Source: Paenarthrobacter sp. GOM3 (GTDB lineage Bacteria > Actinomycetota > Actinomycetes > Actinomycetales > Micrococcaceae). From it: a DNA stretch of 64,000 bases. Positions 1,960 through 18,973 of the stretch are shown here, piece after piece. The stretch's first letter is position 1, and every line of letters starts with the position of its first letter. Position numbers and translations under genes: made by a program. The notes under the pieces are model-generated. The model had not been told where the DNA came from. It saw nothing but the letters and a program-made list of their open reading frames with translations, and searched no databases. The stretch covers positions 620,001-684,000 of the forward strand of contig NZ_CP136562.1 in NCBI RefSeq assembly GCF_018215265.2. Direction: 5' to 3'.

Positions 1960-2975
<1,016 letters not shown>

Positions 2976-2979
<4 letters not shown>

Positions 2980-4082
2980 CTGCTCAACAGCACCTGATCA
3001 TCGACGGCCACAACGACATGCTGTGGAAGCACCACGAAATCGCGGGCCTGGACTTCGGCGTTCTCGACCCTGCCCAGGAGCAGCAACAACTGCACACCGA
3101 TCTGGTACGCCTGAAACGCGGCGGCGTGGGAGCACAATTTTGGTCCATCTGGGTCCCGTCCGATTCCGATCCGGCCGAAACAGCTGCCCTGACCTTTGCG
3201 CAGGTCGAGGCCGTCCACCGTCTATGCGAGACCTATCCCCACCTCACGGCCCTCGCGCGGTCCGCGGATGACATCGAGCGCTGCTTCTCCGAAGGGAGGA
3301 TCGCCTCTTTGATGGGTCTGGAGGGAGGGCACCAGATACTCGATTCCCTCGACGTGTTGCGCTTCCTCTATCGCAGCGGGGTCAGGTATATGACCCTCAC
3401 GCACAACAGGAACACGGCGTGGGCTGACAGTGCCACGGACGGCCCCGGGGTGGGTGGCCTGAACTCGTTAGGCGAAACCGTGGTGGAAACGATGAACGAG
3501 CTTGGCATGTTAATTGACCTGTCGCATTGCGCAGACTCAACGATCGAGCATGTCGCACGTCTCAGCGACGCTCCGTTGTTTTTCTCGCACTCCGGCGCCC
3601 GGGCCCTGTCCGACCATCCCCGTAACGTCACTGACGGCATGTTGGACGCCGTCAGGTCCAGCCGGGGGATTGTCATGGTGGTATTCCTCCCGGAGTTCCT
3701 TTCCGAGGAATACCGGCAATGGTCTGCAGCGCGCCAATCCGTGCAAGAAGACTGGAAGGGGCCGGAGGCGACCGCGCAGGAAACCGCCTGGCTCGCAGAG
3801 AACCCCAAGCCTCCCTGCGGCATTCGGGAGATCTGCAACCATATAGAGCACATTCGCGACGTCGCCGGGATAGGGCACGTCGGCATAGGCAGCGACTTCG
3901 ACGGGATGACCCCGCCCGACGACATGGCTTCGGTGGACCGCTTCCCGGCCCTCCTCGGGGAGCTTATGCGCCGCGGATGGTCAGATCCTGAGCTTGCAGC
4001 ACTGACACACGGCAATCTGATCCGCGTCCTGAGGGACACCGAAGCATCCGCGGTAAGCCGCACCCCACGGCACCGCGGCTAA
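2976..4082 (+). CDS. Membrane-dipeptidase family (peptidase M19) protein
   Basis: A GTG at 2976 overlaps the fba stop (GTGA) and gives 368 aa; this is preferred to an in-frame start at 2895 within fba. The metal ligands of M19 dipeptidases are all present: DGHNDM, GLEGGH, DLSHC, SHSGAR and IGSDFDG. The family hydrolyses dipeptides, and some members act on other small amides. There is no signal peptide, so it is probably cytosolic. A dipeptidase tightly coupled to a sugar-phosphate operon is unexpected and its substrate here is unknown. Confidence 0.88.
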
Positions 4083-4167
4083 CGCCTTTGCCACCAATGT
4101 CTTGGGCTCACCCATCCCCATCCCTGTCCAAGCGGACGTGTCCTGGCTTGAGGCGGGCGCTGCCGCG

Positions 4168-4259
4168 AACGGCGGTTTCGGACGCGTGAACGGCATGCTC
4201 CGGGAGTCCGGCGGTAGCCGCTGTTCCGGGGGTTTTGGCGGGCATAGGTTAGCTCTCAG
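4168..4259 (+). promoter_or_regulatory. Conserved promoter element upstream of katG (copy A)
   Basis: This stretch is about 85% identical to the reverse complement of 15771-15863, upstream of the PQQ operon. It has two AACGGC repeats (4168-4173 and 4189-4194), exactly 21 bp apart. It ends in GGCATAGGTTAGCTCTCAG, with TAGGTT at 4245-4250 a plausible -10 box. On the other strand the repeats read GCCGTTCRC, close to known LytTR half-sites. The katG ATG lies about 55 bp downstream. The rest of 4083-4315 shows no convincing gene. Confidence 0.7.
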
Positions 4260-4315
4260 TTCCCACCGTTCGTCACCAAACAGAGTCCTTCGAGGCTCCT
4301 GCTGAAGGAGTAACT

Positions 4316-6550
4316 ATGTCTGGAAGCCCCGACGCCCATGTGGACCTTACGTACGATCAGACTCTTGCAGCGCATCGACCGCCTGGCAAAAGGAATTGTC
4401 CGGTGGCAGGCGGCCACCCACGCGACGAAAGGCCTTCCCAGCTCGACCTGAGGTGCCTTGCCAGGCCCAGTCGCGCCGCTGATCCATTGGGCGATGGTTT
4501 TGACTACGCCAAAGAGTTCCTTTCGGTGGACCTTGACGAGTTAGCCCGGGATGTCGATCAGGTACTGACTACATCCCAGGACTGGTGGCCGGCCGACTTC
4601 GGACATTACGGGCCGCTTGTCTTGCGCATGGCCTGGCACAGCGCCGGTACTTACCGTGTGGGTGACGGGAGGGGAGGGGCCGGCGCCGGGATGCAGCGCT
4701 TTGCACCCCTCAGCGGCTGGCCCGACAACCGTAACCTCGACAAGGCGCGCAGACTCCTCTGGCCGGTGAAGCAAAAGTACGGCTACAAGGTTTCCTGGGC
4801 GGATTTGATGATCTTCGCAGGTAACAGGGCCCTGGAATCCATGGGCTTCAAAACTTTCGGGTTTGCGGGTGGACGCGAAGACGCCTGGGAAGCTGACGAG
4901 ACGTACTGGGGACCGGAGGACACATGGTTCGCCGACGAGCGCCACAGCGGCATCCGGGATCTGAACGAGCCCCTGGCTGCCAGCGAAATGGGCCTGATCT
5001 ACGTTGACCCCCAAGGGCCAGCCACGGTCCCTGACCCGATCGCCGCAGCCCGGGACATCCGTCAAACATTCCGGCGTATGGGGATGGACGACCAGGAAAC
5101 TGTCGCCTTGGTGGCTGGTGGCCACACGTTCGGTAAGACCCACGGAGTTGCACACCCCGCCACCCATCTGGGCGCCGAGCCAGGGTTCGGAGAATACGAA
5201 CTGCAGGGCTTGGGCTGGCCGAATTCGTTTGGCACAGGCAACGGCGCCGACGCCATCACCAGCGGGCTGGAAGGCATCTGGACGCCCACCCCGACCAGGT
5301 GGGACAACAGCTTCCTGGAGACACTCTTTGCCTATGAATGGGACGTGACCCTAAGCCCAGCAGGTCTCTGGCAATGGGTCCCGAGCGACGGCGAAGGAGC
5401 CGGCACAGTTCCCGACGCCCACGACCCGTCCAAGAGCCACGTCCCCACGGTCCTCACCACGGACCTTGCCCTGAAGGAAGACCGAAAATACGGCCTGATT
5501 GCGCGGCAATTCCTGGAGAATCCGGAGCAAATGGCGGATGCCTTTGCCCGTGCCTGGTTCAAACTCACGCATTTGGATATGGGACCCGTCAGCCGATATC
5601 TGGGCCCGCTGGTCCCGTGTGAACCCCTGATCTGGCAGGACCCGATACCCGAACTCGACCACGAGCTGGTCGGCGCCGACGACATCGACGCGTTGAAGAG
5701 CCAGGTGCTCGAATCAGGTCTGTCGGTGGGACAACTGGTTTCGACTGCATGGTCCTCGGCGTCCACGTTCCGAAACAGTGACAAGCGTGGGGGAGCCAAC
5801 GGAGCGCGCATTCGCCTCGTCCCACAGCGGGCTTGGGAGGCCAACGACCCCGAGTCCTTGGCCAAAGTACTGGACACCCTTGAAGCGATCCGAGAGCAGT
5901 TCAACAGTTCCCAGCCTGGTACGAAAAGGATATCCCTGGCGGACCTGATCGTGCTGGGTGGATGCGCAGCGGTGGAACACGCCGCAGCCATGGGAGGCCA
6001 CGACGTCGAGGTCCCGTTCCGGCCGGGCCGCACGGATGCCACGCAGCAGTGGACCGATCCCGACTGGTTCGCCGTGCTGGAACCCACGGCGGATGCCTTC
6101 CGCAATTATGTGGGACCAGGTAACCGCCTCCCGTCAGAAGTCCTATTGGTGGAGCGCGCCCATCAACTGACATTGTCTGCCCCCGAGATGACTGTCCTCC
6201 TCGGTGGGCTCCGGGTGCTGGGTGCCAACCACAAGGGTTCACCACTTGGCGTACTGACCTTGACCCCGGGAGTCCTGACCAACGATTACTTCGTCAACCT
6301 GCTCGACATCGACACCGTCTGGACGCAGACAACGGCGGCCGGCGCGGCAGAAGCGACGTACGAAGGAAAGGACCGCGAGAGCGGGCAACCCAAGTGGGTC
6401 GCAAGCCGCACTGACCTCGTCTTTGCGGGTAATACCGAACTGCGTGCCCTATCGGAGCTCTATGCGAGCCGGCATGCCGAATCAAAGTTCATCAACGATT
6501 TCGTCTTCGCGTGGCAGAAGGTCATGGACCTCGACAGGTTTGATCGATAG
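4316..6550 (+). CDS. katG: Catalase-peroxidase
   Basis: This 744-aa haem enzyme has two peroxidase-like domains and degrades hydrogen peroxide. Key residues sit at the same numbers as in M. tuberculosis KatG: Arg104, Trp107 and His108 (distal pocket), Tyr229 and Met255 (Met-Tyr-Trp adduct) and proximal His270 in [10 protein letters not shown]. The start is preceded by a GAAGGAG ribosome site. Near the N-terminus, where the family usually has RDWWPNQL, this protein has RDERPSQL, losing both tryptophans. It follows the conserved element at 4168-4259 and heads a likely katG-aquaporin-hps operon, which ties peroxide defence to that regulon. Confidence 0.96.
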
Positions 6551-6610
6551 CGATGCAGCAGCCTTCCACGGGTGACAAGAACTGGTAACACCAACTAAAG
6601 GAGTAAATGG

Positions 6611-7351
6611 ATGTCTCTCGGAATAGTCTTCCTTTCCGAATTATTCGGAACAGCAATGCTTACCCTCTTGGGCTGCGGCGTGGTGGCGAACGTTACGCTC
6701 AAAGGCACTAAAGGAAACAATGGCGGATTCCTGATGGTGACCTGGGGGTGGGGTATCGCCGTTTTCGCCGGCGTTTTTGTCGCCGTGAAGTCCGGCGCGC
6801 ACCTCAACCCAGCAGTTACCCTGGGCCTGCTGATCAATGGCAAGGCGGAGTACGCTGCGGGCGTCAAGGTGGACTTCGCGTCCACCCTCACCTATTTCGG
6901 CGGTGAAATGGTGGGTGCGATCCTGGGTGCCGTGGTCATGTGGGCTGCCCACAAACAGCATTTCGATGCGGAGCCTGAGCCCACAAGCAAGCTCGGCGTT
7001 TTCGCTACAGGCCCGGCCATAAGGTCCACTCCCTGGAACCTGGTCACCGAGATTATCGGCACGTTCGTCCTTGTCTTCGGAATCCTCACTTTCGGTGGCA
7101 CTCCTTCTGGCCTTGGTCCCCTTGCCGTCGCACTTCTAGTGGTTGGCATTGGTGTCTCGCTCGGCGGACCGACCGGTTATGCCATCAACCCGGCCAGGGA
7201 CCTTGGTCCCAGGATCGCCCATGCCCTTCTTCCTATCAAGGGCAAGGGATCCAGCGATTGGGGCTACAGCTGGATCCCCGTTGTGGGCCCACTCGTCGGA
7301 GGAGCCCTGGCCGGAGTGGTCGCCGCGGTTGTGCCGATAGTCGCGTCCTGA
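6611..7351 (+). CDS. Aquaporin / glycerol-facilitator family channel
   Basis: This 246-aa integral membrane protein has the two NPA half-helix motifs of the MIP family, HLNPAVTLG and INPARDLGPR. The Asp after the second NPA is characteristic of glycerol-type (GlpF) channels. Six hydrophobic segments are apparent. It has a good ribosome site (AAAGGAG) 60 bp after katG, and hps starts 15 bp after it. Such channels pass small neutral solutes. In this context passage of methanol, peroxide or glycerol is possible, but that is inference. Confidence 0.92.
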   Translation: MSLGIVFLSELFGTAMLTLLGCGVVANVTLKGTKGNNGGFLMVTWGWGIAVFAGVFVAVKSGAHLNPAVTLGLLINGKAEYAAGVKVDFASTLTYFGGEMVGAILGAVVMWAAHKQHFDAEPEPTSKLGVFATGPAIRSTPWNLVTEIIGTFVLVFGILTFGGTPSGLGPLAVALLVVGIGVSLGGPTGYAINPARDLGPRIAHALLPIKGKGSSDWGYSWIPVVGPLVGGALAGVVAAVVPIVAS

Positions 7352-7366
7352 AGAAAGCAGACCATC

Positions 7367-8011
7367 ATGAAACTCCAAGTCGCCATCGACCTCCTTACTA
7401 CCGACGCAGCCTTGGAACTCGCGGGGAAGGTGGCCGAATACGTGGACATCCTGGGGCTCGGGGCTCCGTTGATCAAGTCTGAAGGTCTCCCGGTTGTCAG
7501 CGCCGTCAAGAAGGCGCACCCCGACAAACAGGTCCTGGCGGACCTGCAGACCATGGATGCTGGAGAGCTTGAAGCAAACCTTGCCTTCGCGGCAGGCGCT
7601 GACCTGGTGACGGTGCTGGGTGTTGCTGACGACTCGACCATCGCGGGTGCGATCCGGGCGGCAGCTGAATGCGACAAGGGAGTGATCGTCGACCTCCTTG
7701 GCGTGGAGGACAAGGTGGGCCGCGCCCGTGAGGTCCGAGCCTTGGGCGCCAAATACGCGGGGATGCATGCTGGATTGGACGAGCAAGCCCAGCCGGGGTT
7801 CGACTTGGCGCGGCTGCTCCGTTCGGGCAAAGAAGCAGGCGTTCCGTTCTCTGTTGCAGGTGGGGTAAAGCTGACCACGATTACAGACATTCAGCAGGCC
7901 GGCGCGGACGTGGCCGTCGTCGGAGGTTCCATTTATGGCGCCGCGGACCCCGCCCAGGCGGCGCGGAAGCTTCGAGGTGCTGTCATGTGGCTCCCCGTGC
8001 CGCGGACGTGA
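7367..8011 (+). CDS. 3-hexulose-6-phosphate synthase homologue with altered active site
   Basis: This 214-aa protein closely follows methylotroph HPS (RmpA/HxlA type) along its whole length: MKLQVAIDLL, VTVLGVADDSTI, MHAGLDEQ and FSVAGGVK. HPS fixes formaldehyde onto ribulose-5-P. Asp8, Asp59, Asp64 and His134 are present. However, the Mg-binding Glu expected in IELGTPLI is Gly30 (ILGLGAPLI), and the Lys of DLKTMDAG is Gln61 (DLQTMDAG). Each change could arise by one base change. The protein may therefore be impaired, altered in function, or a second copy beside a normal HPS elsewhere. It is the third gene after the katG promoter element. Confidence 0.82.
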   Translation: MKLQVAIDLLTTDAALELAGKVAEYVDILGLGAPLIKSEGLPVVSAVKKAHPDKQVLADLQTMDAGELEANLAFAAGADLVTVLGVADDSTIAGAIRAAAECDKGVIVDLLGVEDKVGRAREVRALGAKYAGMHAGLDEQAQPGFDLARLLRSGKEAGVPFSVAGGVKLTTITDIQQAGADVAVVGGSIYGAADPAQAARKLRGAVMWLPVPRT

Positions 8012-8017
8012 CCACGG

Positions 8018-8218
8018 ATGCGTAGCTCAATCACCAAAGCCTGGCGCCGGCTGTTGCAGGCGATGTCCTATCTGCACCCGCTTCCGCCCGGGCAGGAACC
8101 CGTCAGTTGCGTGGTGTGCGGGCGCAGGGAACCCGGAGACGACGCGGACCAGCTGGACTGGTTCGTCGTCGCCACCGGGTTCTTGCCGAGCTGCATCAAC
8201 TGCGCCGTTAAGACGTGA
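8018..8218 (+). CDS. Small putative zinc-ribbon protein
   Basis: This 66-aa reading frame begins 6 bp after hps on the same strand. It has two CxxC pairs, CVVC near residue 31 and CINC near residue 59, separated by an acidic linker; this looks like a small zinc ribbon. I do not recognise the family. Close spacing to hps suggests co-transcription. It is convergent with cysE, whose stop is 10 bp away. Its reality is supported by position and cysteine pattern only. Confidence 0.55.
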   Translation: MRSSITKAWRRLLQAMSYLHPLPPGQEPVSCVVCGRREPGDDADQLDWFVVATGFLPSCINCAVKT

Positions 8219-8228
8219 TGCGGCTTCC

Positions 8229-8807
8229 CTATATTAGGAGGGCCGGGTCGATGAAGTCTGTCCTCGGGTCCGCGACAGCTTCCGGGTCTTTCCTACGGAA
8301 AGTTGCGGGAATGCCGATCTCTACGGAGCGGGGCGGAACGTCACGGACGACAACGGCATTCGCGCCTGCGGCAGAGTCCTCGCCGATCGTGATGGGACCC
8401 AGTATCTTTGCGCCCGCGCCGAGCATGACGCGATTTCCGATGGTGGGGTGGCGTTTAGTCTTGCTCAATGCCCGGCCGCCCAGCGTGACGCCTTGGTACA
8501 TGAGGACGTCGTCACCGATTTCAGCCGTTTCCCCCACGACAATACCCGTTCCATGGTCGATGAAAAGTCGTCGCCCGATTCTGGCTCCTGGGTGAATGTC
8601 GATCCCTGTGAGGGTCCTGGTCGCTTGGGATATCAGCCTCGCCAAACCTCGCAGGTGCGGTTTCTGCCAGAGGGCGTGTGCTAAACGGTGGCTCCAGATT
8701 GCGTGAACCCCTGAATAGGCTAGGGCGACCTCGAAGAGGTTGGACGCCGCTGGGTCTTGCGTCTTGGCGGCCTGCAAGTCTTCCTTGAGGAGGTTCAGAA
8801 TCGTCAT
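8229..8807 (-). CDS. cysE: Serine O-acetyltransferase
   Basis: An ATG at 8807 with an AAAGGA site gives 192 aa starting [15 protein letters not shown]; a start at 8906 would add an unrelated Cys-rich tail. The left-handed beta-helix hexapeptide motifs are clear: [39 protein letters not shown] and HPTIGN. It makes O-acetylserine from serine and acetyl-CoA, the first step of cysteine synthesis, in the cytosol. It is a short form, common in actinobacteria. It looks unrelated to the methylotrophy genes that surround it. Confidence 0.92.
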
Positions 8808-8862
8808 TTTGTTCCTTTGGTAGCCGGCAACCACGCACGTCCATACTGATTCATGGGGAAGG

Positions 8863-9393
8863 TCAGAGGAACAACATGACCACTGACAGTAACAAAAGAA
8901 CGCCAAAGACCCGGTTGAGGTTTCTCAGGCCTTTCGTGGTTCGGATCAGTCGTGATCCGCCTTGGCCCAATAGCGCCCAAGCGCTGTTCGATATGAGGTT
9001 GACCGCAGTGAAAAGCACGCCCATAAGCACGAGGCCTTGGATGCCACCACCGAAAGTTGCCGGGTAGGTGGCTGACGCGGTCAGCGCCATAAGCCAGGCT
9101 TTGGGGTTCACTACCTGGAGTGCGCCGAGTTTCCAGAAGCCAGCAGCAGACAGAGAGGCAGACGGTGTTGAAGGGTCACTACTGAAAATCTTCCAGGCCA
9201 AGTAGACCAGATACCCCGCACCCACAACCTTGAGCGAGAAGGATATGGCCGGAACGCTCTGAATCAGAGAACCGATTCCGGTGTTAGTGAGGGCCAGTAG
9301 CGCGAGGAACCCAATGGATATTCCAAAGATCGCAGGTAACGCCGCGCGGAATGGTCTGCCCACAGCCAACGAGGCCACTAAGACATTGTTGGG
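8863..9393 (-). pseudogene. LysE-family exporter, 5'-truncated
   Basis: The frame encodes most of a LysE/RhtB-type amino-acid exporter, with four or five hydrophobic segments and VVNPKAWLMAL. Read upstream of the GTG at 9376-9378, homology continues as PNNVLVASLAVGR, the core of the family's conserved N-terminal PGPNN motif. It then breaks at the first Pro (9391-9393) into unrelated residues and a TGA at 9406-9408. About 15-25 N-terminal residues, including the start, are missing. I read this as a gene cut by a rearrangement next to the PQQ cluster. A shortened 171-aa product from the GTG remains possible. Confidence 0.7.
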
Positions 9394-9440
9394 TAAGAAT
9401 TCGTGTCAAGACATTTTCCTTATCGAAGTTGTTCGTCGGT

Positions 9441-9683
9441 TTACGCTTCTTTTCCGTGTTGGTGGACTTCGCACGGGCAATACATGTTCCGGCACGTGTA
9501 GCAGGCGGGCATCATATTGCACCGTTGGCAGACCTGGCAGTCCACCGGGTCAACGTGCCGACCCGATCCTGCTGCCGTATACGGCTCGCCGCAGTGATAG
9601 CAGGGCGGACGCGTCGGGTCATCCTCATGGGCGCGAATTCGCGTCGGGTCATCCTCATGGGCGCGAATTCCCTTGTTCTCCAT
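9441..9683 (-). CDS. Small cysteine-rich protein with internal duplication
   Basis: This 80-aa protein's start overlaps the stop of the MntP-like gene (ATGA), so translation is probably coupled. The N-terminal half contains two copies of IRAHEDDPTR in tandem, encoded by a perfect 30-bp duplication. The second half has nine cysteines in CxxC-type pairs (CYHC, CQVCQRC, CYTC, CPC) and several His residues, so metal binding is likely. I do not recognise a named family. It is the last gene of the PQQ operon, just before the truncated lysE. Confidence 0.65.
   Translation of the reverse strand: MENKGIRAHEDDPTRIRAHEDDPTRPPCYHCGEPYTAAGSGRHVDPVDCQVCQRCNMMPACYTCRNMYCPCEVHQHGKEA
9611..9670. repeat. Perfect 30-bp tandem duplication
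   Basis: Bases 9611-9640 and 9641-9670 are identical (each ends GGGCGCGAATTC). The duplication is in frame within the small Cys-rich gene and adds ten residues rich in His, Asp and Glu. It appears recent because the copies do not differ. Confidence 0.95.
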
Positions 9684-10267
9684 CAGTCGCCATCCGTATC
9701 GGCGATGCCCTCGTCAATGATGTCTATGCCCAGGAGCATGAGGCACGCCATGACCAGGAGGACTATCCCTGTCAGCAGGTCCATGCGGAGGCGGGGCAGG
9801 AAACGGGGTAGGAAGCTGGCAATCGTTCGGCCGATTTGGTGTCCCGCGACTGACATCACGAACGTGGTCAGGGCGAACAGGGCGGGCGCAAGCCACGGCG
9901 AATGGCCCGCCAGTCCAAGTGTGGCACCGGCTGCGACGTTGTCGAAGCTCAGGGGCAGGGGCAGCCAGCGCCGTGCCGTTTTCATGTCGAGATCGGCATG
10001 TTCGGGAAACCTCAGCGCCTTGATGATGAGCCACAGGCTGTAGGCGCCCAAGCCGATCGCACCGATGACTCCTGCCATGCCTTCAATCTTTGTGCTCAGA
10101 TATGCGCCGATCAGGATCCCAGCCACCGGGGCCACACCATCCCACGCAGCAAAGACCAGTGACGTCCTTACTGACGTGCGCCAGTTGGGTTTGAGGCCGC
10201 CAAGCACAATGGACGTCCGAAAATTGTCCAGGCCAAGGGCAAACCCCAACCCCACCAGGGCGATCAT
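9683..10267 (-). CDS. MntP-like (DUF204) metal exporter
   Basis: This 194-aa protein has about six membrane segments in two repeats. Each repeat holds an Asp-Asn motif, GLDNFRTS (D14-N15) and LSFDNVAAG (D109-N110), as in manganese-efflux MntP proteins. Its ATG overlaps the pqqE stop (ATGA) and its own stop overlaps the next gene, so it belongs to the PQQ operon. Export of Mn is the family role. Here a part in handling the Ca or lanthanide cofactor of the neighbouring quinoprotein is an attractive but untested idea. Confidence 0.8.
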   Translation of the reverse strand: MIALVGLGFALGLDNFRTSIVLGGLKPNWRTSVRTSLVFAAWDGVAPVAGILIGAYLSTKIEGMAGVIGAIGLGAYSLWLIIKALRFPEHADLDMKTARRWLPLPLSFDNVAAGATLGLAGHSPWLAPALFALTTFVMSVAGHQIGRTIASFLPRFLPRLRMDLLTGIVLLVMACLMLLGIDIIDEGIADTDGD

Positions 10268-11445
10268 GGTTTGTCCCTGAGAATGGTGGAGGACAGCTGG
10301 ACGGGTGTGCCTGTGGTCCTTCGCGGGGTCACCGTCATTGTCCGGTTGGGGCGACCCATCGCTGCGCGGGGGATCAGCATCCCGCCCGCGGGCCGGGAGG
10401 GATCGTTGGCTGTCACCACGGCAGCTTCAATGAGGCCGTGGTCAGGGGAAAGGTGGCAGACCGGGTCAGTCCGGGCGGCATCGCCGGTCAGGGCAAAGGC
10501 CTGGCAGCGGCAGCCGCCGAAGTCGATTTCCTTGCGCTCGCAACTGCGGCACGGGTCGGGCATCCATGCGTCACCGCGGAATTGCTGGAAGAGCGGAGCC
10601 TCTTCCCAGATCCAACCCAACGAGTGGTCGCGGACATTGGCCGAAGGGATTCCGTGGCCGATCGTCAATTCGTGGGCGGCTGGACACGGCAGTGCATCGC
10701 CGTTGGGCACTACGGTGAACTGCCGGCTGGCCCACCCGTCCATGCAGGGTTTTGGATACTTGCTGTAGTAGTCCGGGATGACGTAGATGATCTCCATGGA
10801 TCCCTCCAGACGTTCCCGTGCCTCGCGAACCACCACTTCGGCGTGGTCGAGCTGATCCCGGCTCGGAAGTAATTCGGGCTGGTTAATCCCTGCCCAGCCT
10901 GCGTATTGCGTATTTGCCAACTCGATGCGGTCGGCGTTCATCGCTTCAGCCATGGCGATGATGCCGGCGATCCGATCGATGTTCAGCCGATGCAGGACGA
11001 CGTTGAGGGTGAGCGGCCAGCCCAGATCCTTCACTTGCTGGGCGACCACCTGCTTGCGGGCAAACGAGGGAGTGCCAGCGATGAGATCGGAGAGTGGTTG
11101 TTCGTCTGACTGAATGCTGAGCTGCACATGGTCCAGGCCTGCCTCGCGAAGCTCCGCCGCGCGGCTCCTTGATAAGCCAAGCCCGCTGGTGATCAAGTTG
11201 GTGTAGAGGCCCAGTTGGTTGGCGGAGCGCACCAACTCGACAATGTCGTGGCGCTGGAGTGGCTCGCCGCCGGATAGATGCAATTGCAGGACGCCCAAGT
11301 CTGCGGCTTCGGCGAATACCCGTTTCCACTCCTCCGTGCTCAGCTCATCGCGGTAGTCGTCGAGTTGAAGCGGGTTTGAGCAGTAGCCGCATTTGAGCGG
11401 GCAGGCATAGGTGAGCTCAGCGAGCAGTCCGTAGGGCTTATCCAT
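10264..11445 (-). CDS. pqqE: PQQ biosynthesis radical SAM enzyme PqqE
   Basis: This 393-aa protein has the radical SAM cluster motif C15-x3-C19-x2-C22 (YACPLKCGYC), SGGEPLQR, and a C-terminal SPASM region with further cysteines (KPCMDGW, LPCPAAH, CRSCERKEIDFGGCRCQ). PqqE joins the Glu and Tyr side chains of PqqA, the first chemical step of PQQ formation. It overlaps pqqD by a few bases and the MntP-like gene by four. It also carries a roughly 40-residue tail after the usual end of the SPASM domain, which is Thr/Arg-rich. Confidence 0.95.
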   Translation of the reverse strand: MDKPYGLLAELTYACPLKCGYCSNPLQLDDYRDELSTEEWKRVFAEAADLGVLQLHLSGGEPLQRHDIVELVRSANQLGLYTNLITSGLGLSRSRAAELREAGLDHVQLSIQSDEQPLSDLIAGTPSFARKQVVAQQVKDLGWPLTLNVVLHRLNIDRIAGIIAMAEAMNADRIELANTQYAGWAGINQPELLPSRDQLDHAEVVVREARERLEGSMEIIYVIPDYYSKYPKPCMDGWASRQFTVVPNGDALPCPAAHELTIGHGIPSANVRDHSLGWIWEEAPLFQQFRGDAWMPDPCRSCERKEIDFGGCRCQAFALTGDAARTDPVCHLSPDHGLIEAAVVTANDPSRPAGGMLIPRAAMGRPNRTMTVTPRRTTGTPVQLSSTILRDKP

Positions 11446-11734
11446 GTTCTACCTCCATGCCGTGCTTGGTGACGAGCCCCGCCACGAAGCGTTGGATGTC
11501 GCCGAATGCGACCTGGTCGTACTGGCCGCGCAGTTCGGCCTCGATCTCTGCGAGGGTCCTGGTGGAGTCGCACAGCTCCACAATTGCGGCGCCGGTGGCG
11601 TTGATGGTCCAGATGGTCTCGGGTGAGAGCAAGGCGTACTCTCCGCGCGCGGCGTTGAAGACCAGCCGAACGTGGGGGGACAGCCTCGGCCGGTCTGTTG
11701 CATCAACGAGTTCCATAGCCCTGGTCAATCGCAT
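11438..11734 (-). CDS. pqqD: PQQ biosynthesis peptide chaperone PqqD
   Basis: From an ATG at 11734 with a GTGGAG ribosome site the protein is 98 aa. A later ATG at 11716 would give 92 aa, and the choice is uncertain. The sequence PRLSPHVRLVFNAARGEYALLSPE followed by an Asn/Thr-rich helix and IVELCDSTRTLAEI is typical of PqqD. It binds the PqqA peptide and presents it to PqqE. It overlaps both pqqC and pqqE, as in many pqq operons. Confidence 0.92.
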   Translation of the reverse strand: MRLTRAMELVDATDRPRLSPHVRLVFNAARGEYALLSPETIWTINATGAAIVELCDSTRTLAEIEAELRGQYDQVAFGDIQRFVAGLVTKHGMEVEHG

Positions 11735-12395
11735 CGAGCATGCTCCACAGGACATCGCATTTGAAGGACAAGGCGGCGACGGCGGCGGCCTGCGTTTCCG
11801 GGGTGACGCAGTACTTTCGTACGATCTCCAAACCGTGTTCGGAGTCGCGGGGGGCTTGGGAGATGCGGGCCCGGAAATAGGCGAGGCCTTCCGGGGTGAT
11901 CCAGGTGTAATAGCGTTCGAAGGCCGAGAGCCGTTCCGCCATCAGGTCCGGGGCAAACAACTCGGTCAGGGACGATGCGACGGACTCCACCCAGGGCTTG
12001 GTGCGGGTGAAGGTGACATACGCATCCACGGCGAACCTCACCCCGGGAAGCAGGTGCCGGGAGTCCTCCACCTCTTCGCGCGTCAGGCCGACAGCTTCGC
12101 TCAAACGCAGCCAGGACTCGATTCCCCCGGTCCCCTCCGTGACACCGTCGTGGTCGACAATCCGCTGCACCCAGCGTCGCCGGACGTCGCTGTCCGGGCA
12201 GTGGCTGAGGATCGCCCCATCTTTGCGGGGGATATTCATTTGGTAGTAGAAGCGGTTCGCCACCCAGCCCCGGAGTTCCTCCGGGGTGGACTGGCCTGCG
12301 TTCATGCGCCGATGAAAGGGATGCTCGCTGTGATACTTCTTGGCGTGGGCGCGGAGGGACTCTTCGAGCTCATCCGGCGTGAGTATTGCTGTCAT
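11703..12395 (-). CDS. pqqC: Pyrroloquinoline-quinone synthase PqqC
   Basis: This 230-aa all-helical, cofactor-free oxidase catalyses the final ring closure and eight-electron oxidation to PQQ. Family motifs include HPFHRRMNAGQ, RFYYQMNIPRKD and HDGVTEGTGGIESWLRL. Its length is close to the family's usual 230-250 aa. It starts 9 bp after pqqB ends. The TENA/THI-4 fold family also includes thiaminases, but the motifs and neighbours make PqqC clear. Confidence 0.95.
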   Translation of the reverse strand: MTAILTPDELEESLRAHAKKYHSEHPFHRRMNAGQSTPEELRGWVANRFYYQMNIPRKDGAILSHCPDSDVRRRWVQRIVDHDGVTEGTGGIESWLRLSEAVGLTREEVEDSRHLLPGVRFAVDAYVTFTRTKPWVESVASSLTELFAPDLMAERLSAFERYYTWITPEGLAYFRARISQAPRDSEHGLEIVRKYCVTPETQAAAVAALSFKCDVLWSMLDAIDQGYGTR

Positions 12396-12404
12396 AGCTG
12401 CTCC

Positions 12405-13298
12405 TTAGATTTCCAACTCGAGCCCGTCCACGGCGACCTCCATGCCATGCCGGTCGAGGTGCAGGCGTTCTTGTGAGTCGTCGAGCAGGATCGGGTTGGT
12501 GTTGTTGATATGGACGTAGATCTTGCGCCGGATCCCGAGGGCCGACAACGCTTCGAGGCTGCCGCCCGGCCCACTGATGGGTACGTGTCCCATGTCCCGT
12601 GAAGTCTTGTCAGCCAGGTTGAGCCTGGCCAGTTCGTCGTCGCGCCAGAAGCTGCCGTCGATCAGGAGGGCGGAGCAATCCTGGAATTCCTCGAGGATGT
12701 CCGGGGTGAGTCGCTGCACGCCGGGAAGGTAGACGAAGGATCTGTCGGTGGTGGTGTCAGTGATCCGATAGCCCACCACGCGGCCATAGGAAGCTGTGCC
12801 TTCGAAGCGCGTGCGTTTGCTGGTGGGGACGTTGAAGGCGCGGTAGGACAGCCCTGGCCCAAGCTGCGTCTCCACGCCCGGTATCACGGGTTTCCACTTG
12901 ACGGGGCAATATTTTTCGAGCGTTCGCAGCATGCCGCTACCGGAGGTGAGTGTTCCGTGCACTGACTCAGTGGCGTGCACTTCGAGGCCGCGGCCCTCCC
13001 GCATCAGGAGCAGCCCCAGGGAATGATCAAGCTCAGCATCCGTGAGCAGGACGGCCTGTACTTGGGTTCCTTGGCCTGCTACTGGATGCAGCTCTTCGAA
13101 GGATTCCATTTGTGATCGGATGTCCGGCGAGCAGTTGACAAGGAACCATTGCCGACGGTCAGCGCTGACCGCGATGGACGATTGAAGGCGCGGAACACAA
13201 GGACGTGATCCGTCCCTTGCCGCACTGCACGAAGGGCAGGCGCAGTTCCACTGCGGAAAGCCTCCTCCAGCTGCTGATCCCAGTACGCGTACCCACAT
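12405..13298 (-). CDS. pqqB: PQQ biosynthesis protein PqqB
   Basis: The start at ATG 13298 gives 297 aa beginning MWVRVLGSAAGGGFPQWNC, the normal PqqB N-terminus. An upstream start at 13367 would add a proline-rich stretch that runs into the pqqA-pqqB hairpin. It is a metallo-beta-lactamase-fold protein, with LTDAELDHSLGLLLMREG and HINNTNPILL. PqqB is thought to hydroxylate an intermediate tyrosine-derived ring. It follows pqqA after a strong inverted repeat, which may set the pqqA:pqqB ratio. Confidence 0.95.
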   Translation of the reverse strand: MWVRVLGSAAGGGFPQWNCACPSCSAARDGSRPCVPRLQSSIAVSADRRQWFLVNCSPDIRSQMESFEELHPVAGQGTQVQAVLLTDAELDHSLGLLLMREGRGLEVHATESVHGTLTSGSGMLRTLEKYCPVKWKPVIPGVETQLGPGLSYRAFNVPTSKRTRFEGTASYGRVVGYRITDTTTDRSFVYLPGVQRLTPDILEEFQDCSALLIDGSFWRDDELARLNLADKTSRDMGHVPISGPGGSLEALSALGIRRKIYVHINNTNPILLDDSQERLHLDRHGMEVAVDGLELEI

Positions 13299-13337
13299 CT
13301 CTGATGACGCCTTTCGTTGCGGTGGAGGTGTTATGGG

Positions 13338-13374
13338 CGGAGGTATGCCGGCTATGGTTGCCGGCATACCTCCG
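13338..13374 (-). terminator. Hairpin between pqqA and pqqB (attenuator-like)
   Basis: The arms 13338-13352 and 13360-13374 are perfectly complementary over 15 bp, with a 7-nt loop. The hairpin starts 5 bp after the pqqA stop in the direction of transcription. No T-run follows, so partial termination, processing or mRNA stabilisation are more likely than full termination. It would let the peptide precursor pqqA be made in excess. Confidence 0.75.
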
Positions 13375-13379
13375 GACCA

Positions 13380-13475
13380 CTACTTGGTTGCCACGTAAGC
13401 GGTTACTTCTGCCGATACGCGGATTTCCGCGAGCGTGGGAGCTTCCCAGCTCTTTTTGGTGCTTTGCTCAGTCAT
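13380..13475 (-). CDS. pqqA: PQQ precursor peptide PqqA
   Basis: This 31-aa peptide ends EVTAYVATK, with the Glu23-x3-Tyr27 pair that PqqE cross-links to build PQQ. The ATG at 13475 is preceded by a GAAAGGAG site. It was hidden inside a longer reading frame from 13703, which lacks any other sign of coding. It lies between the quinoprotein gene (43 bp upstream in the operon) and the hairpin before pqqB. No pqqF-type protease gene lies in the window. Confidence 0.93.
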   Translation of the reverse strand: MTEQSTKKSWEAPTLAEIRVSAEVTAYVATK

Positions 13476-13518
13476 GTTCCTTCTCCTTTCATTTATGGAT
13501 GGGTTTGCAGGGGACGAT

Positions 13519-15204
13519 TCAGTCGGGGAGTGCGAAGGCGATGACAGCGCTGCCGTGACCTTGGCCGAGGAGACCCGGAACGATCCCTTCCAGCCAACCG
13601 CCCCAACCGACGGGCACCACGACATACTGCTTACCGTCGACGCTGTACGTCGAGGGACTGCTGTGGTGTCCGCTTCCGCACTGGAATTCCCAGAGCTTTT
13701 CACCGGTGCGGGCGTCCAGTGCTACGAATTCGCCGGTAGGGGTGCCAGCGAACACCAGGTCCCCGGCCGTGGCCAGCACGGACGCGGCCATGGGGTAGTC
13801 GATGCGCCAGCGCCATTTCTCTTCACCGTAGGTGTCGAACGCACTGACTGATCCGGCCATGTTGTCGATGTCCACTTGGACACCGGCGCCCCAGTACGGG
13901 ATGCCTTCCTTGAACTCCCGTCGACGACGCGTCGCGGTAGCACCGACGTCGGCCACTGGCACATAGAACAGCTCAGTTTTCTGGCTGTATGCGGCATGCG
14001 TCCATTCCTTCGCACCGGCCGGGCCGGGGTAGAAGTGAACCGGTTCGCCTTCTTTGTCGGGATACTTCCGCGGCGTTACTTTCCCATCCCGGGTGATAAC
14101 GCCCCAGTCGATCCGGTCCACAAAGGGAGTTACGTGCTGCAGCTCGCCGTTGGTGCGGTCCAGGACGAAGAAGTAGCCGTTCTTATCGAAATGGCCGAGT
14201 AGCTTCTTGCCATCACGTTCAAACAGGGTCATCTCCATAGTGGAGTCGTAGTCCCACAGGTCGTGCGGCGTGAACTGGTAGTGCCATTTGATTTCCCCGG
14301 TGTCGACATCCATCGCTACGACACTGTCGGTGTAGAGGTTGTCCCCTTCACGGACGCCGCCATCGAAGTCCGGCGCAGGGTTGCCGGTACCGGCGTAGTA
14401 CAGATTCAGCTCCGGATCATAGGTTCCGGTAACCCAGTGGTTTCCGCCACCGCGCTGCCAGGCCTCGCCGTCGTCGGGCCAGGTCTCCGAGCCCGGTTCG
14501 CCGGGCTTAGGCACCGTGTAAGTGCGCCAGCGCTGCTCGCCCGTTTCAAGGTCCCAGCAGTCGATGTGGCCACGTACGCCGAACTCGCCGCCGGCGCTGC
14601 CGGTGATGAGGGTGTCCTTGATGACAGTTGGGGCAATTGAGGCACTTTCACCTGCGCGCACATCCCCAATGGTCTTCTGCCACACCACATCCCCATTTGT
14701 TGCGTCCAGCGCCAACAGTTGGGCATTCGGGGTCACGAAGAAGACCTTCCCCTTCGCTACCGCACAACCCCGGTTGACGTTGCTGCAACAGAGCGAGACG
14801 TCAAAAGGCACAGCATGCTTGTAGCGCCACAGCTCCTTGCCGGTCACCGCGTCCAACGCCCAGAACCAGCCGTCCCAGCCGGTGACGTACATGACGCCGT
14901 CGACCACCAGTGGGCAGGCTTCGAAAGCATAGGTCGAGGTAGCGGCCATCTGGCCGGACTGCCCAGCCTGGAAGATCCACGCGGGGCTGAGCTTGCTCAC
15001 GTTCCCGGCATTGATTTGGTCCAGCAGGCTGTAGCGCTGTCCGTCATAGGCGCCGTAGTAAGTCAGCCAGTTCTGTGATTCCGAACGCGCCTTCAGGAGC
15101 CGCTCGGAGTCGATGTCGTTTGTCACGGCGGGCGCGATCCTCGCCATGCTGCTCAACGCACTGTGGTTGATAGCCTCGCCGGCGTCCACATACTCAACAG
15201 TCAT
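13519..15204 (-). CDS. PQQ-dependent alcohol (methanol/ethanol-type) dehydrogenase
   Basis: This 561-aa single-domain quinoprotein has the eight-bladed propeller's tryptophan docking motifs (e.g. ALDAVTGKELW, AMDVDTGEIKW, ALDARTGEKLW). Active-site residues are visible: vicinal Cys139-Cys140, Glu207 in GGEFGVRG, Asn275 in GTGNPAP, catalytic Asp318 and Lys341. Asp320, two residues after the catalytic Asp (WDYD), is the mark of lanthanide-dependent enzymes. The N-terminal 45 residues contain no hydrophobic signal peptide or twin-Arg motif, unusual for this normally exported family. There is no cytochrome domain. A GAAAGGA site precedes the ATG. It should oxidise a primary alcohol to an aldehyde; methanol is suggested by the hps context. 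Confidence 0.92.
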   Translation of the reverse strand: MTVEYVDAGEAINHSALSSMARIAPAVTNDIDSERLLKARSESQNWLTYYGAYDGQRYSLLDQINAGNVSKLSPAWIFQAGQSGQMAATSTYAFEACPLVVDGVMYVTGWDGWFWALDAVTGKELWRYKHAVPFDVSLCCSNVNRGCAVAKGKVFFVTPNAQLLALDATNGDVVWQKTIGDVRAGESASIAPTVIKDTLITGSAGGEFGVRGHIDCWDLETGEQRWRTYTVPKPGEPGSETWPDDGEAWQRGGGNHWVTGTYDPELNLYYAGTGNPAPDFDGGVREGDNLYTDSVVAMDVDTGEIKWHYQFTPHDLWDYDSTMEMTLFERDGKKLLGHFDKNGYFFVLDRTNGELQHVTPFVDRIDWGVITRDGKVTPRKYPDKEGEPVHFYPGPAGAKEWTHAAYSQKTELFYVPVADVGATATRRRREFKEGIPYWGAGVQVDIDNMAGSVSAFDTYGEEKWRWRIDYPMAASVLATAGDLVFAGTPTGEFVALDARTGEKLWEFQCGSGHHSSPSTYSVDGKQYVVVPVGWGGWLEGIVPGLLGQGHGSAVIAFALPD

Positions 15205-15218
15205 CTGTCTGTTCCTTT

Positions 15219-15695
15219 CTATGAGCGGGGTTGGGTGGGACGATCGAGTCGGGCTTCAGGGGGCACTTCACCCTGCACGACGATCGCGGCGGTGAGGCCG
15301 CGTCCTTCGTCGTTGCCTCCCGGCGAGCTGTACCAGTAGTAGCCCGGGCCATCCAGGCGGATTGTCGCCTTGCCCCTCGAATGGTTCACCAGCCAAAGGA
15401 ACTTCTGGTCGCCGTTGCTCGGCAACAGACAGGCGTGGGTGTTCTTGTCGTCATTGATGACCGTCAGTTCGAGATCACCACCATGCGGCAGAACGAGAAT
15501 CGCCGGCTCCCAGCAAACCTCGTCTTCCTTGATCCGGATGGTCGCCTCCATAGTGCCGTCGGCACGCTCCGTCGCCTCCGCGATGGAACCTGTGGCCAAT
15601 ACCCGGCCCATGGATGCTTTGTTCTGCCCGTCCAAACCAAGCCTGGCCAGCAACTCTGACCGTTCCTCAGTAATGTGTTCTTCAGCAATCGTCAC
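15219..15695 (-). CDS. Cupredoxin-like PQQ-ADH-associated protein
   Basis: This 158-aa protein starts with GTG at 15695 behind a strong GAGGAGG site and lies 14 bp before the quinoprotein gene. The C-terminal half resembles a cupredoxin fold: beta-strands with NTHACLLPSNG, LDGPGYYWYSSPGGNDEGRG and AAIVVQGE. The usual Cys/His/Met copper loop is not visible; Tyr and Ser stand there, so it may not be a blue copper protein. It lacks a signal peptide, like its neighbour. It resembles small proteins I recall beside PQQ-ADH genes of mycobacteria. A role as electron acceptor or structural partner is inference. Confidence 0.7.
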   Translation of the reverse strand: MTIAEEHITEERSELLARLGLDGQNKASMGRVLATGSIAEATERADGTMEATIRIKEDEVCWEPAILVLPHGGDLELTVINDDKNTHACLLPSNGDQKFLWLVNHSRGKATIRLDGPGYYWYSSPGGNDEGRGLTAAIVVQGEVPPEARLDRPTQPRS

Positions 15696-15770
15696 CAGAC
15701 ATCACCTCCTCGTGAAATCACATACGAATTACGCGAACCTGCATGCGTAACAGCCAGCTCGTCCGAGCAG

Positions 15771-15863
15771 CTGAGAGCTAACCGTATGCCCGCCCAAGCC
15801 CGCCGAACAGCCACTACCGCCGGCCCCCCGGAGCGCGCCGTTCACCCGTCCGAAGGTGCCGTT
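15771..15863 (-). promoter_or_regulatory. Conserved promoter element upstream of the PQQ operon (copy B)
   Basis: This is the reverse-strand counterpart of 4168-4259, with the same order of parts. Two GCCGTT repeats (15858-15863 and 15837-15842) are 21 bp apart, followed by a conserved GCTCCGG...CCGGCGGTAG core. A TACGGT box (15781-15786) then precedes TTAGCTCTCAG. The -10-like box lies about 50 bp from the second repeat in both copies, apart from a 1-bp indel. The GTG of the cupredoxin-like gene is 75 bp downstream. The remainder up to 16055 is the divergent leader of the regulator gene. Confidence 0.7.
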
Positions 15864-16055
15864 CACAGCCGCATCCACAGTGCGTGGACCAGATTTCCGG
15901 CATGGGTTTGCGCGGCACGAAAATAATGCCCGCCAAAGCAAATGTGTGAACTACGTCATGAAATCCACCAAGCCGCCACTAATGGCTATAGACGCAGGCC
16001 ATGGGTTGGCCTTTGGTCCAGAACGCGTTCCTTGACGGGCGCCAAGGAGGTTTCC

Positions 16056-17477: not shown

Positions 17478-17945
17478 TCAGCCGACCGTCTTCAAGTAGT
17501 TCCGGATCCCGTCCACCACCAGTTGGTGGTCGTCATCGGATGACAACCCGGACACCGTGATCGCCCCAATGACGCCAACCCCACGAACCCGGATGGGGAA
17601 TGAGCCCCCTGCCAAGGTGTAGTCCTCCGGCGCAAGCCATCCGCCGCCCAGGGGGTCGCGTTCGGCAAACTGCTCAGTCAGCAGGGCCGTGCTGTGTTCA
17701 AAGCGCAGCACCGAAGCGGACTTCCGGCGGATCCACTCTTCCTGGTCGGATGTGGCACCCGGCAGGACGCATCGGAAGAGCACTATGTTGTGCCGCCGGA
17801 TATCGATGGCGACACCAAGGCCGGCGGAAAGGGCGTGGTTGGCGATCAGCGATCCCAACCGCCAGGCGTCGTGGTGATCGAATGCTGCGAAAACCAGTTC
17901 CTCTTCCTGCTGGCGGAGTTCTGCGAGGCGGGGTGAGTCGCTCAT
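17478..17945 (-). CDS. HbpS-like / UPF0303 heme-degrading-domain protein
   Basis: This 155-aa protein resembles the UPF0303/HbpS-like family (LGSLIANHALSAGLGVAIDIRRHN, GGSFPIRV, GVGVIGAITVSGL). Family members have been described as extracellular heme binders or as stand-alone cytosolic proteins of unclear role; no signal peptide is seen here. Its ATG overlaps the stop of the upstream oxidoreductase gene (ATGA), making it the last gene of the sugar operon. It converges on the LytTR gene. Confidence 0.82.
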   Translation of the reverse strand: MSDSPRLAELRQQEEELVFAAFDHHDAWRLGSLIANHALSAGLGVAIDIRRHNIVLFRCVLPGATSDQEEWIRRKSASVLRFEHSTALLTEQFAERDPLGGGWLAPEDYTLAGGSFPIRVRGVGVIGAITVSGLSSDDDHQLVVDGIRNYLKTVG

Positions 17946-18973
17946 GCGGCACCCGCCCCGTTGGAAGCACCGTCGGCGTCGTAGCTCAGGCCGATCTGGC
18001 GGCGGATCTCGTCCATGGCCGCCATGATGGCAACGGTTTCTTCGGGCGGAAGGATAGTTCCGGCAGTGTCACCGGCACGGACCAAGCGTTCCAGTTCCGC
18101 TGCCTGGTACTGCATTCCGCGGCTGGTGACGGGCTGCTCATACCGTTCAATAACCGCACCATCGGCACCCCAAACGGTGAAGGGAACAGGGTTGTACCAA
18201 GTGTGTTCGATATCGATCCAACCCTCGGAGCCGATCACCATGGCCCGGTTGGCGCTCGCAGCGTCCAGTTCGCAGTCCACCAAAGCCTGCGCGCCGCCGT
18301 CGTAATCAAAAATCGCCGCCGTCTGTCGGTCCACACCGGTGGCCGTCGTGGAAGCGCTTGCCCGGATCGTGGCCGGCGTGCCCAGGATGTCGAAAGCGAA
18401 CGAGATGGGGTAGATGCCGAGGTCCAGCAGGGCCCCACCACCCAGTGCGGGATCGTTCAAGCGGTGGGAAGGATCCTTGGGAAGGCTTTGGTTGTGGCTG
18501 GCCACCACTTTCCGGACGTCGCCGATGGTGCCGGCAGCGATGACCTCGCGCACACGGATCATGTGCGGAAGGAACCTCGTCCACATGGCTTCCAACGCCA
18601 CGAGCCCTTTCGATGCGGCCAGGTCAATGATGTCCTGGGCTTCGCGGGCGTTCATGGTGAACGACTTTTCCACCAACACGTGCTTACCCGCATTCAGGGC
18701 CAACAAAGCGTTCGCGTGGTGGAAGGGGTGCGGTGTGGCGATGTACACCACGTCCACCAGGGGGTCGGCAACGAGGTCCTCGTAGCTGGCGTGCGCGGTG
18801 GCGACACCGTTCTGTTCGGCGAATGCCTTGCTCGATTCCAGCGACCGTGATCCGACCGCCTGGACCGTGAAACCGTTGTCTTTGAGGTCCTGCGTTTGCA
18901 GCCCGGCGATGAAGCCGGTGCCGAGAATTCCCCAGCGGATGGTGCCGTCTGAAGTGCCATTGCTGAGGGTCAC
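17942..18973 (-). CDS. Gfo/Idh/MocA oxidoreductase (1)
   Basis: A GTG at 18973 gives 343 aa beginning VTLSNGTSDGTIRWGILGTGFIAG. An upstream start at 19123 would run over the end of the preceding gene. It has the Rossmann motif GILGTGFIAG and the C-terminal Gfo/Idh/MocA substrate domain, and resembles the dihydrodiol-dehydrogenase-like subgroup. The family's EKP motif is EKS here (VEKSFTMNAREA); the lysine is kept. It probably oxidises a sugar or polyol with NAD(P). Confidence 0.87.
   Translation of the reverse strand: MTLSNGTSDGTIRWGILGTGFIAGLQTQDLKDNGFTVQAVGSRSLESSKAFAEQNGVATAHASYEDLVADPLVDVVYIATPHPFHHANALLALNAGKHVLVEKSFTMNAREAQDIIDLAASKGLVALEAMWTRFLPHMIRVREVIAAGTIGDVRKVVASHNQSLPKDPSHRLNDPALGGGALLDLGIYPISFAFDILGTPATIRASASTTATGVDRQTAAIFDYDGGAQALVDCELDAASANRAMVIGSEGWIDIEHTWYNPVPFTVWGADGAVIERYEQPVTSRGMQYQAAELERLVRAGDTAGTILPPEETVAIMAAMDEIRRQIGLSYDADGASNGAGAA

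Follow-up and report, generated by a model that had tools for sequence, protein, structure and literature searches.

What joins a catalase-peroxidase gene to the genes of pyrroloquinoline quinone (PQQ)-dependent alcohol oxidation in Paenarthrobacter sp. GOM3? We analyzed a 64,000-bp stretch of its genome (positions 620001–684000 of 4,464,400 bases; hereafter the window, its genome being G000 in our panel), in which two closely similar segments of approximately 92 bp precede two separate gene runs. Element A (4165–4250, + strand) lies before katG-aqp-hps, and element B (15866–15781, - strand) lies before MSMEG_3727, the gene for a PQQ-dependent alcohol dehydrogenase (ADH) and the pqq genes. An earlier note on this DNA had read both as LytTR-type elements, linked them to the adjacent regulator gene and placed katG and PQQ-ADH in one regulon; the joint occurrence of site, regulator and katG in two bacterial families strongly supports these proposals. 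Judged from sequence, A and B are very probably activator-dependent promoters of a single regulon, at which a one-component LytTR protein with a DhaR-like sensor would bind three half-sites just upstream of the -35.

When positions 4160–4262 were compared with the whole genome, the query found itself and 635771–635864 on the - strand (window 15771–15864; 84% identity, E = 4.8e-22). The next best of the 16 matches had an E-value of 0.115, leaving A and B as the sole pair so alike in the genome. A local alignment of 4159–4259 with the reverse complement of 15872–15771 contains one 1-base gap, in agreement with the approximately 85% identity and 1-bp indel reported before. Each element consists of three 9-bp direct repeats (NNSRNCGGY) in 21-bp steps, with 12-bp gaps, followed after 29 bp by a TANNNT -10 box (Table 1). 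The two AACGGC copies 21 bp apart described in the earlier note are present in both elements and the TANNNT boxes lie where it had put them, but the third half-site had been missed, and the element start proposed there, 4168, is already 3 bp into the first repeat. In both elements 6 bp separate the end of the third half-site from a weak -35. A genome-wide search for the exact pair GAACGGC-N14-GAACGGC, of the kind proposed earlier, recovered A and B but was not specific to them: a third occurrence, at 2,392,080, is covered by overlapping open reading frames (ORFs), the longest of 352 and 255 amino acids, and was set aside as a presumed chance pair.

The candidate regulator is encoded divergently from the MSMEG_3727-PQQ run. 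Its C-terminal domain matches LytTR (PF04397; E = 9.2e-18, 64.7 bits against a cut-off of 22.6), and a profile of this region matches chain 3d6w_A (E = 1.6e-6). The DNA-contact motif reads FLRVHRQ, with F.RVHR in 12/12 aligned sequences including that of the window; its last position is Q or R, versus S in the FhRhHRS contact motif of LytTR proteins (PMC4227749). The N-terminal region resembles DhaR (NF008485; E = 1.4e-8), its 33.5 bits being far under the cut-off of 551, and PDB entry 4lrx (E = 5e-4). This region is presumably of GAF type, Pfam giving no GAF match, and AcoR-type regulators are presumably comparable. The N-terminal region resembles that of DhaR-type regulators, but a LytTR domain stands in place of their AAA+/Fis-type output, neither an AAA+ nor a Fis-type domain being detected by Pfam.

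Canonical LytTR sites are paired 9-bp direct repeats 10–13 bp apart, and RcoM1/CoxC use three repeats (PMC11347149); with three copies and 12-bp gaps, the elements fit this spacing. In LytTR regulatory systems (LRS) the gaps are mostly 12 bp, and the S. mutans repeats lie 4–11 bp before the -35 (PMC6193735). Read in reverse complement, the half-sites are GCCGTTCRC/ACCGCTCAC with 12-bp gaps and resemble published LytTR sites. LRS/AgrA-type sites are likewise 9-bp direct repeats with a mostly 12-bp gap upstream of the -35, and their cores ACCGCTTAT and GCCGCTTAG are close to the reverse complement ACCGCTCAC/GCCGTTCAC found here, although they comprise two repeats instead of three (PMC6193735, PMC4227749). 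CoxC/RcoM1 share with the present system a sensor-LytTR fusion, three short direct repeats with gaps of approximately 12–13 bp and an oxidation operon, but differ in the repeats themselves (TTCNNGCA/TTNNNGCN versus NNSRNCGGY) in the sensor, which is MHYT in CoxC instead of DhaR-like, and in serving CO metabolism instead of that of alcohol (PMC11347149). In Pseudomonas aeruginosa, the AlgR core CCGTTCGTC/CCGTTCATC resembles GCCGTTCRC; site RB3 of algD lies at -45 in the opposite orientation, and maximal transcription needs all three algD sites, but AlgR is a response regulator whose sites are not necessarily 12-bp-spaced direct repeats (PMC4064291). A lone ACCGTTCGT resembling the AlgR core is present at 4265–4273, just 3' of the katG -10, in an orientation opposite to that of the element. 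The parts are of known kinds, namely a LytTR domain, a DhaR-like sensor and a direct-repeat operator; their combination, the 21-21-29 triple operator and a regulon of PQQ-ADH with KatG were not found among the listed titles and abstracts in searches of open-licence papers.

Within the same family, we compared 395 genomes, nine of which carry the regulator (E ≤ 1e-30). MSMEG_3727 has matches at E ≤ 0.001 in ten genomes and over its cut-off in seven, and all seven fall among the nine (hypergeometric p = 1.3e-13; this and later p-values are indicative only, because the loci share ancestry). Looked for in these related strains with the same genes, the full anatomy stands before MSMEG_3727 in 7/7. 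A simple score that combines the three repeats with TANNNT at 28–30 bp places it before MSMEG_3727-ADH in G000, G129, G017, G297, G300, G339, G377 and Paenarthrobacter sp. AR 02, the closest of three named regulator-bearing loci (92% identity in the best segment). Two genomes, G000 and G300, also have the full anatomy before katG, and in G300 it precedes a Na/Ca exchanger gene as well; it further stands before pqqA in G377 and before a C1-type peptidase gene followed by hps in G381. The ADH promoters of G264 and G381 lie outside the comparison, since at E ≤ 1e-50 G264 has no ADH match and G381 has a 117-residue piece. The distance from the third repeat to TANNNT is 29 bp in 13/13 distinct aligned sites, an alignment that leaves out duplicates and the site before the G377 peptidase gene, which is equivocal (its first repeat is poor, its distance 30 bp and its matrix score -3.3).

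The pattern is specific when all of its parts are scored together. Markov sequences modelled on the dinucleotides of the loci (5 × 265,224 bases, read on both strands) scored at best 30 of 33; 33 was reached by the two elements of the window and, in relatives, by nine sites representing seven distinct sequences. In a leave-one-out weight matrix the 13 same-family sites scored 39.3–57.8 bits and a site of a more distant genome, G757, 18.4, against a maximum of 5.9 over 91,820 control positions of the window. A strict triple pattern gave nine matches in 5/9 regulator genomes, located before MSMEG_3727 (7), katG (1) and the Na/Ca exchanger gene (1), while among the 386 other genomes 18 contained a total of 20 matches; at 0 mismatches over the 395 genomes this compares as 29 with 17 for a reversed control (summed from the table), counts that are partly circular because the pattern was built from some of these same sites. 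A tighter triple with one mismatch gave 60 matches in the nine regulator genomes versus 24 in the control, most of them not before recognised regulon genes. Two looser patterns were discarded as uninformative: the pair-only pattern in GC-rich genomes (214 matches at ≤2 mismatches in the window genome versus 379 for the reversed control), and a loose triple with ≤1 mismatch (55 versus 45). Whereas in LRS a repeat promoter lies upstream of the regulator gene, the element was found upstream of 0/13 regulator genes here (best matrix scores -18.0 to -4.6); autoregulation by this element was therefore rejected, although a different repeat would escape the matrix.

Beyond the family, MSMEG_3727 is over its cut-off in 2/394 genomes drawn from the class, G757 among them, and in 90/297 genomes of the family of G757. 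From this second family we took 40 stretches of 39 such genomes together with G757; the first 20 stretches were mostly picked by resemblance to the G757 protein and the next 20 by genus spread, so that the ratio of stretches with and without the regulator (a LytTR relative within the 9–20 kb read) is not a population figure. With the matrix trained on the 13 same-family sites alone, 23 of the 27 regulator loci scored at least 14.5, compared to 1/14 loci without (Fisher p = 1.6e-6), at a threshold chosen after seeing the score gap from 4.3, the next regulator locus, to 14.5. Each upstream region (approximately 200 bp only for L200) was shuffled 30 times, with shuffle means of -0.5 to -10.0. When the repeats were placed by themselves, TANNNT followed at 29 bp in 23/27, at 30 bp in one and never elsewhere in the 15–40 bp range. 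katG is present in 27/27 stretches with the regulator versus 0/14 without. The formaldehyde-fixation arm that the earlier note had included is less constant than katG: an hps-like tblastn match of >45% identity occurs in 12 of the 27 regulator-bearing stretches.

Besides the threshold set with the gap in view, several observations weigh against a single LytTR regulon. The best single shuffles reached 16.7 (L185), 16.1 (L198) and 15.5 (L202), and the four lowest of the 23 loci (14.5–15.6: L194, L208, L207 and L197) are therefore weak on score alone and also need their position and -10 distance. Low scores were obtained for four of the 27 regulator loci: both L202 and L203 have two repeats, a poor third and TANNNT in place, L199 has one good repeat with TANNNT in place, and no site was found before L204. 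Conversely, L206 scores 22.8 while lacking the regulator; it holds the second MSMEG_3727 copy of G807, whose L205 has one. The third half-site deviates from the other two, and on the promoter strand the repeats run opposite to the sites in the LRS table of PMC6193735. The regulator, the ADH clade and katG are inherited together, so their co-occurrence does not represent many independent events. Lastly, outside G000 and G300 an own element at katG was found in 0/5 testable cases of the leave-one-out matrix scan (G339 is at a contig end) and in 0/27 of the second-family test (best 1.3; G757 counted in both sets). In three genomes (G377, G017 and G129), MSMEG_3727-ADH-pqqA is followed on its own strand by katG, in G017 after an intervening fragment of pqqB, and katG presumably forms one operon with these genes. 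That joint control recurs by different routes is, in our view, the best indication that katG and this dehydrogenase belong together.

The similarity of A and B could in principle be the trace of a recently duplicated promoter segment, the repeats as such being without regulatory significance. The spacers of the katG element agree with those of the ADH element at 75% in the window genome and 68% in G300, as compared to 51% between the katG elements of these two genomes, and in G377 the elements before pqqA and ADH are 72% identical. Recent duplication probably does account for part of the 84% identity, because the window katG element is nearer to the ADH element of its own genome than to the katG element of G300, and katG probably gained its promoter by within-lineage duplication, separately in G000 and G300. 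As the sole explanation, duplication is scarcely credible, since the repeat and -10 columns persist while spacer identity, with a median of 49% in all pairwise comparisons among 14 sites, drops as far as 25% between the window katG element and the G757 site, and the 29-bp distance is kept in the second family. Over the 14 sites, repeat columns hold 1.07 bits, spacers 0.48 and the upstream 25-bp flank 0.20, values that are partly circular as some of these columns were used in finding the sites. Columns outside the site search are conserved as well: the first T of the -35 (14/14), the preceding C (13/14) and the T at the 13th position (13/14). Duplication and function are compatible, and we think that both hold.

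If the repeats are an operator, another linked regulator might bind them. LuxR-type ORFs with CsgD/NarL-like DNA-binding ends occur in at least two genomes, close to the regulator of G300 and, in G264, close to one of its two regulator copies, but the repeat length, the 12-bp gap, the ACCGYTYAC-like core and the place before the -35 are traits of LytTR sites, and the sites track the presence of the LytTR gene, which makes an operator of another regulator, LuxR-type or otherwise, very unlikely. A somewhat better case, though still an unlikely one, can be made for a LytTR protein that binds and represses until an alcohol or aldehyde relieves it, since CoxC, a LytTR protein that likewise uses three repeats, is a repressor (PMC11347149) and the third half-site lies near the -35 here. 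The CoxC operator overlaps the -35, however (PMC11347149), whereas the third half-site here ends upstream of a poor -35, the layout of an activated promoter (PMC6193735). Repression is thus possible but less likely than activation, which we infer instead.

For activation by the LytTR protein, the following mechanism can be envisaged. The regulator would occupy the three half-sites along one face of the DNA and, from its position 6 bp before the poor -35, recruit or hold RNA polymerase at the -10. Its sensor would respond to an alcohol, an aldehyde or a related signal, as suggested by the DhaR-like sensor and the content of the regulon, and the ligand-bound form would switch on PQQ synthesis and the PQQ-ADH together with the catalase-peroxidase, the membrane channel and hexulose-phosphate synthase. 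PQQ-dependent alcohol oxidation has been little studied in actinobacteria, and for the M. smegmatis cluster MSMEG_3721-3727 a putative role only is given (PMC6529628). The putative operator supplies a regulon and a candidate sensor for it, as well as an explanation, open to test, of why this dehydrogenase is constantly paired with catalase-peroxidase, and a LytTR promoter of fixed geometry (21-21-29 bp) can help in the study of transcription activation by LytTR proteins.

Regarding the type of dehydrogenase, its TPHDLWDYD aligns with TPHDGWDFD of the best PDB match, the quinoprotein ethanol dehydrogenase 6zcv/6zcw. The D-x-D motif, with its extra active-site Asp, belongs to lanthanide-dependent PQQ alcohol dehydrogenases, 6ZCW being PedH (PMC11996626). 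As a mark of regulator loci the motif was rejected, occurring in 27/27 second-family loci with the regulator and also in 8/14 without. The protein may be cytosolic, as its N-terminus lacks a hydrophobic stretch (the highest Kyte-Doolittle mean of any 19-residue segment among the first 60 residues is 0.46), and from its sequence may be a cytosolic lanthanide-type enzyme. We tentatively suggest, as a possibility short of an even chance, that in at least two actinobacterial families such an enzyme forms part of a co-inherited or mobile module, obligatorily paired with KatG as its electrons (or the acceptor MSMEG_3727) reach O2 and make peroxide; the LytTR/DhaR-like protein and its three-half-site operator would be the dedicated switch, and KatG would occur only in switch-bearing ADH clades. 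Peroxide formation by the dehydrogenase, if true, would explain KatG.

The katG, channel and hps genes follow one another on the + strand with gaps of 60 and 15 bp, and the - strand run comprises MSMEG_3727, PQQ-ADH, pqqA, pqqB, a pqqC-like ORF, pqqD and pqqE; each run would form a single transcript.

Table 1. Elements and genes in the window, and the copies at related loci that are discussed in the text
Feature	Position	Strand	Remarks
Element A, half-site r1, GCGAACGGC	4165..4173	+	
Element A, half-site r2, GTGAACGGC	4186..4194	+	
Element A, half-site r3, TCCGGCGGT	4207..4215	+	absent from the earlier note
Element A, weak -35, TGTTCC	4222..4227	+	17 bp before -10
Element A, -10 box, TAGGTT	4245..4250	+	29 bp past r3
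Element B, half-site r1, GTGAACGGC	15858..15866	-	
Element B, half-site r2, GTGAACGGC	15837..15845	-	
Element B, half-site r3, GCCGGCGGT	15816..15824	-	
Element B, weak -35, TGTTCG	15804..15809	-	17-bp spacer to -10
Element B, -10 box, TACGGT	15781..15786	-	29 bp past r3
katG, catalase-peroxidase	4316..6550	+	TIGR00198, NF011635
MIP-family channel, aquaporin/aquaglyceroporin-like	6611..7351	+	
hps, 3-hexulose-6-phosphate synthase	7367..8011	+	TIGR03128
MSMEG_3727-family PQQ-associated protein	15219..15695	-	TIGR04339; first gene of PQQ run
PQQ-dependent alcohol dehydrogenase, methanol/ethanol family	13519..15204	-	TIGR03075; D-x-D motif
ORF with PqqA match at C-terminus	13380..13703	-	PF08042; real pqqA start probably within the ORF
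pqqB	12405..13367	-	TIGR02108
pqqC-like ORF, 230 amino acids	11703..12395	-	presumed name, from position
pqqD	11438..11755	-	TIGR03859
pqqE	10264..11445	-	TIGR02109
LytTR regulator, 466 amino acids	16056..17456	+	DhaR-like N-terminal region, LytTR output domain; ATG behind AAGGAGG; 504-amino-acid ORF from 15942 probably too long
Duplicate units of G129/G017	L062 17306/18336 with L122 4861; L120 6157-8804 and L064 1269		
C1-type peptidase copies	L061 14772-16148; L060 745-2070; L062 5787-7118; L063 5602-6921; L065 11704-13023; L120 1127-2470		
Na/Ca-exchanger-like copies	L067 11321-12541 (-); L064 6665; L118 14938; L137 8133-9338		

Next to the katG promoter, an M19 membrane-dipeptidase ORF (2895–4082, + strand) lies immediately 5', preceded on the same strand by rpe and a class II aldolase gene. 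An HbpS-like gene (haem-degrading domain; 17478–17945, - strand) is convergent to the regulator and retained in AR 02. LRS operons also encode an inhibitory membrane protein; the one + strand ORF scanned downstream of the regulator here (17600–18850) has no Pfam match. In many second-family loci (L137 876–2222 and 2976–4343; L179–L197), two divergent LytTR paralogues adjoin, whose identities with the window protein are approximately 38% and 58%.

G129 and G017 each contain two promoter-MSMEG_3727-ADH copies with identical elements; pqqB-E come after one copy and katG after the other. A C1-type (bleomycin-hydrolase-like) peptidase is encoded in six of the nine regulator genomes, at most 3 kb from the regulator in five and at approximately 20 kb in G017; at E ≤ 1e-50 this peptidase (PF03051) is matched neither in the window genome nor in G300, G297 or G757. 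This PepC-like peptidase was rejected as a universal regulon member or PqqA protease, as a good element precedes 1/6 genes (G381), that of G377 being equivocal and none being found at the other four tested; that it takes part in PqqA processing is a guess. In several genomes the PQQ-ADH module is accompanied by a Na/Ca-exchanger-like protein, which in G300 belongs to PF01699 and has its own element, and which possibly functions in calcium or lanthanide handling.

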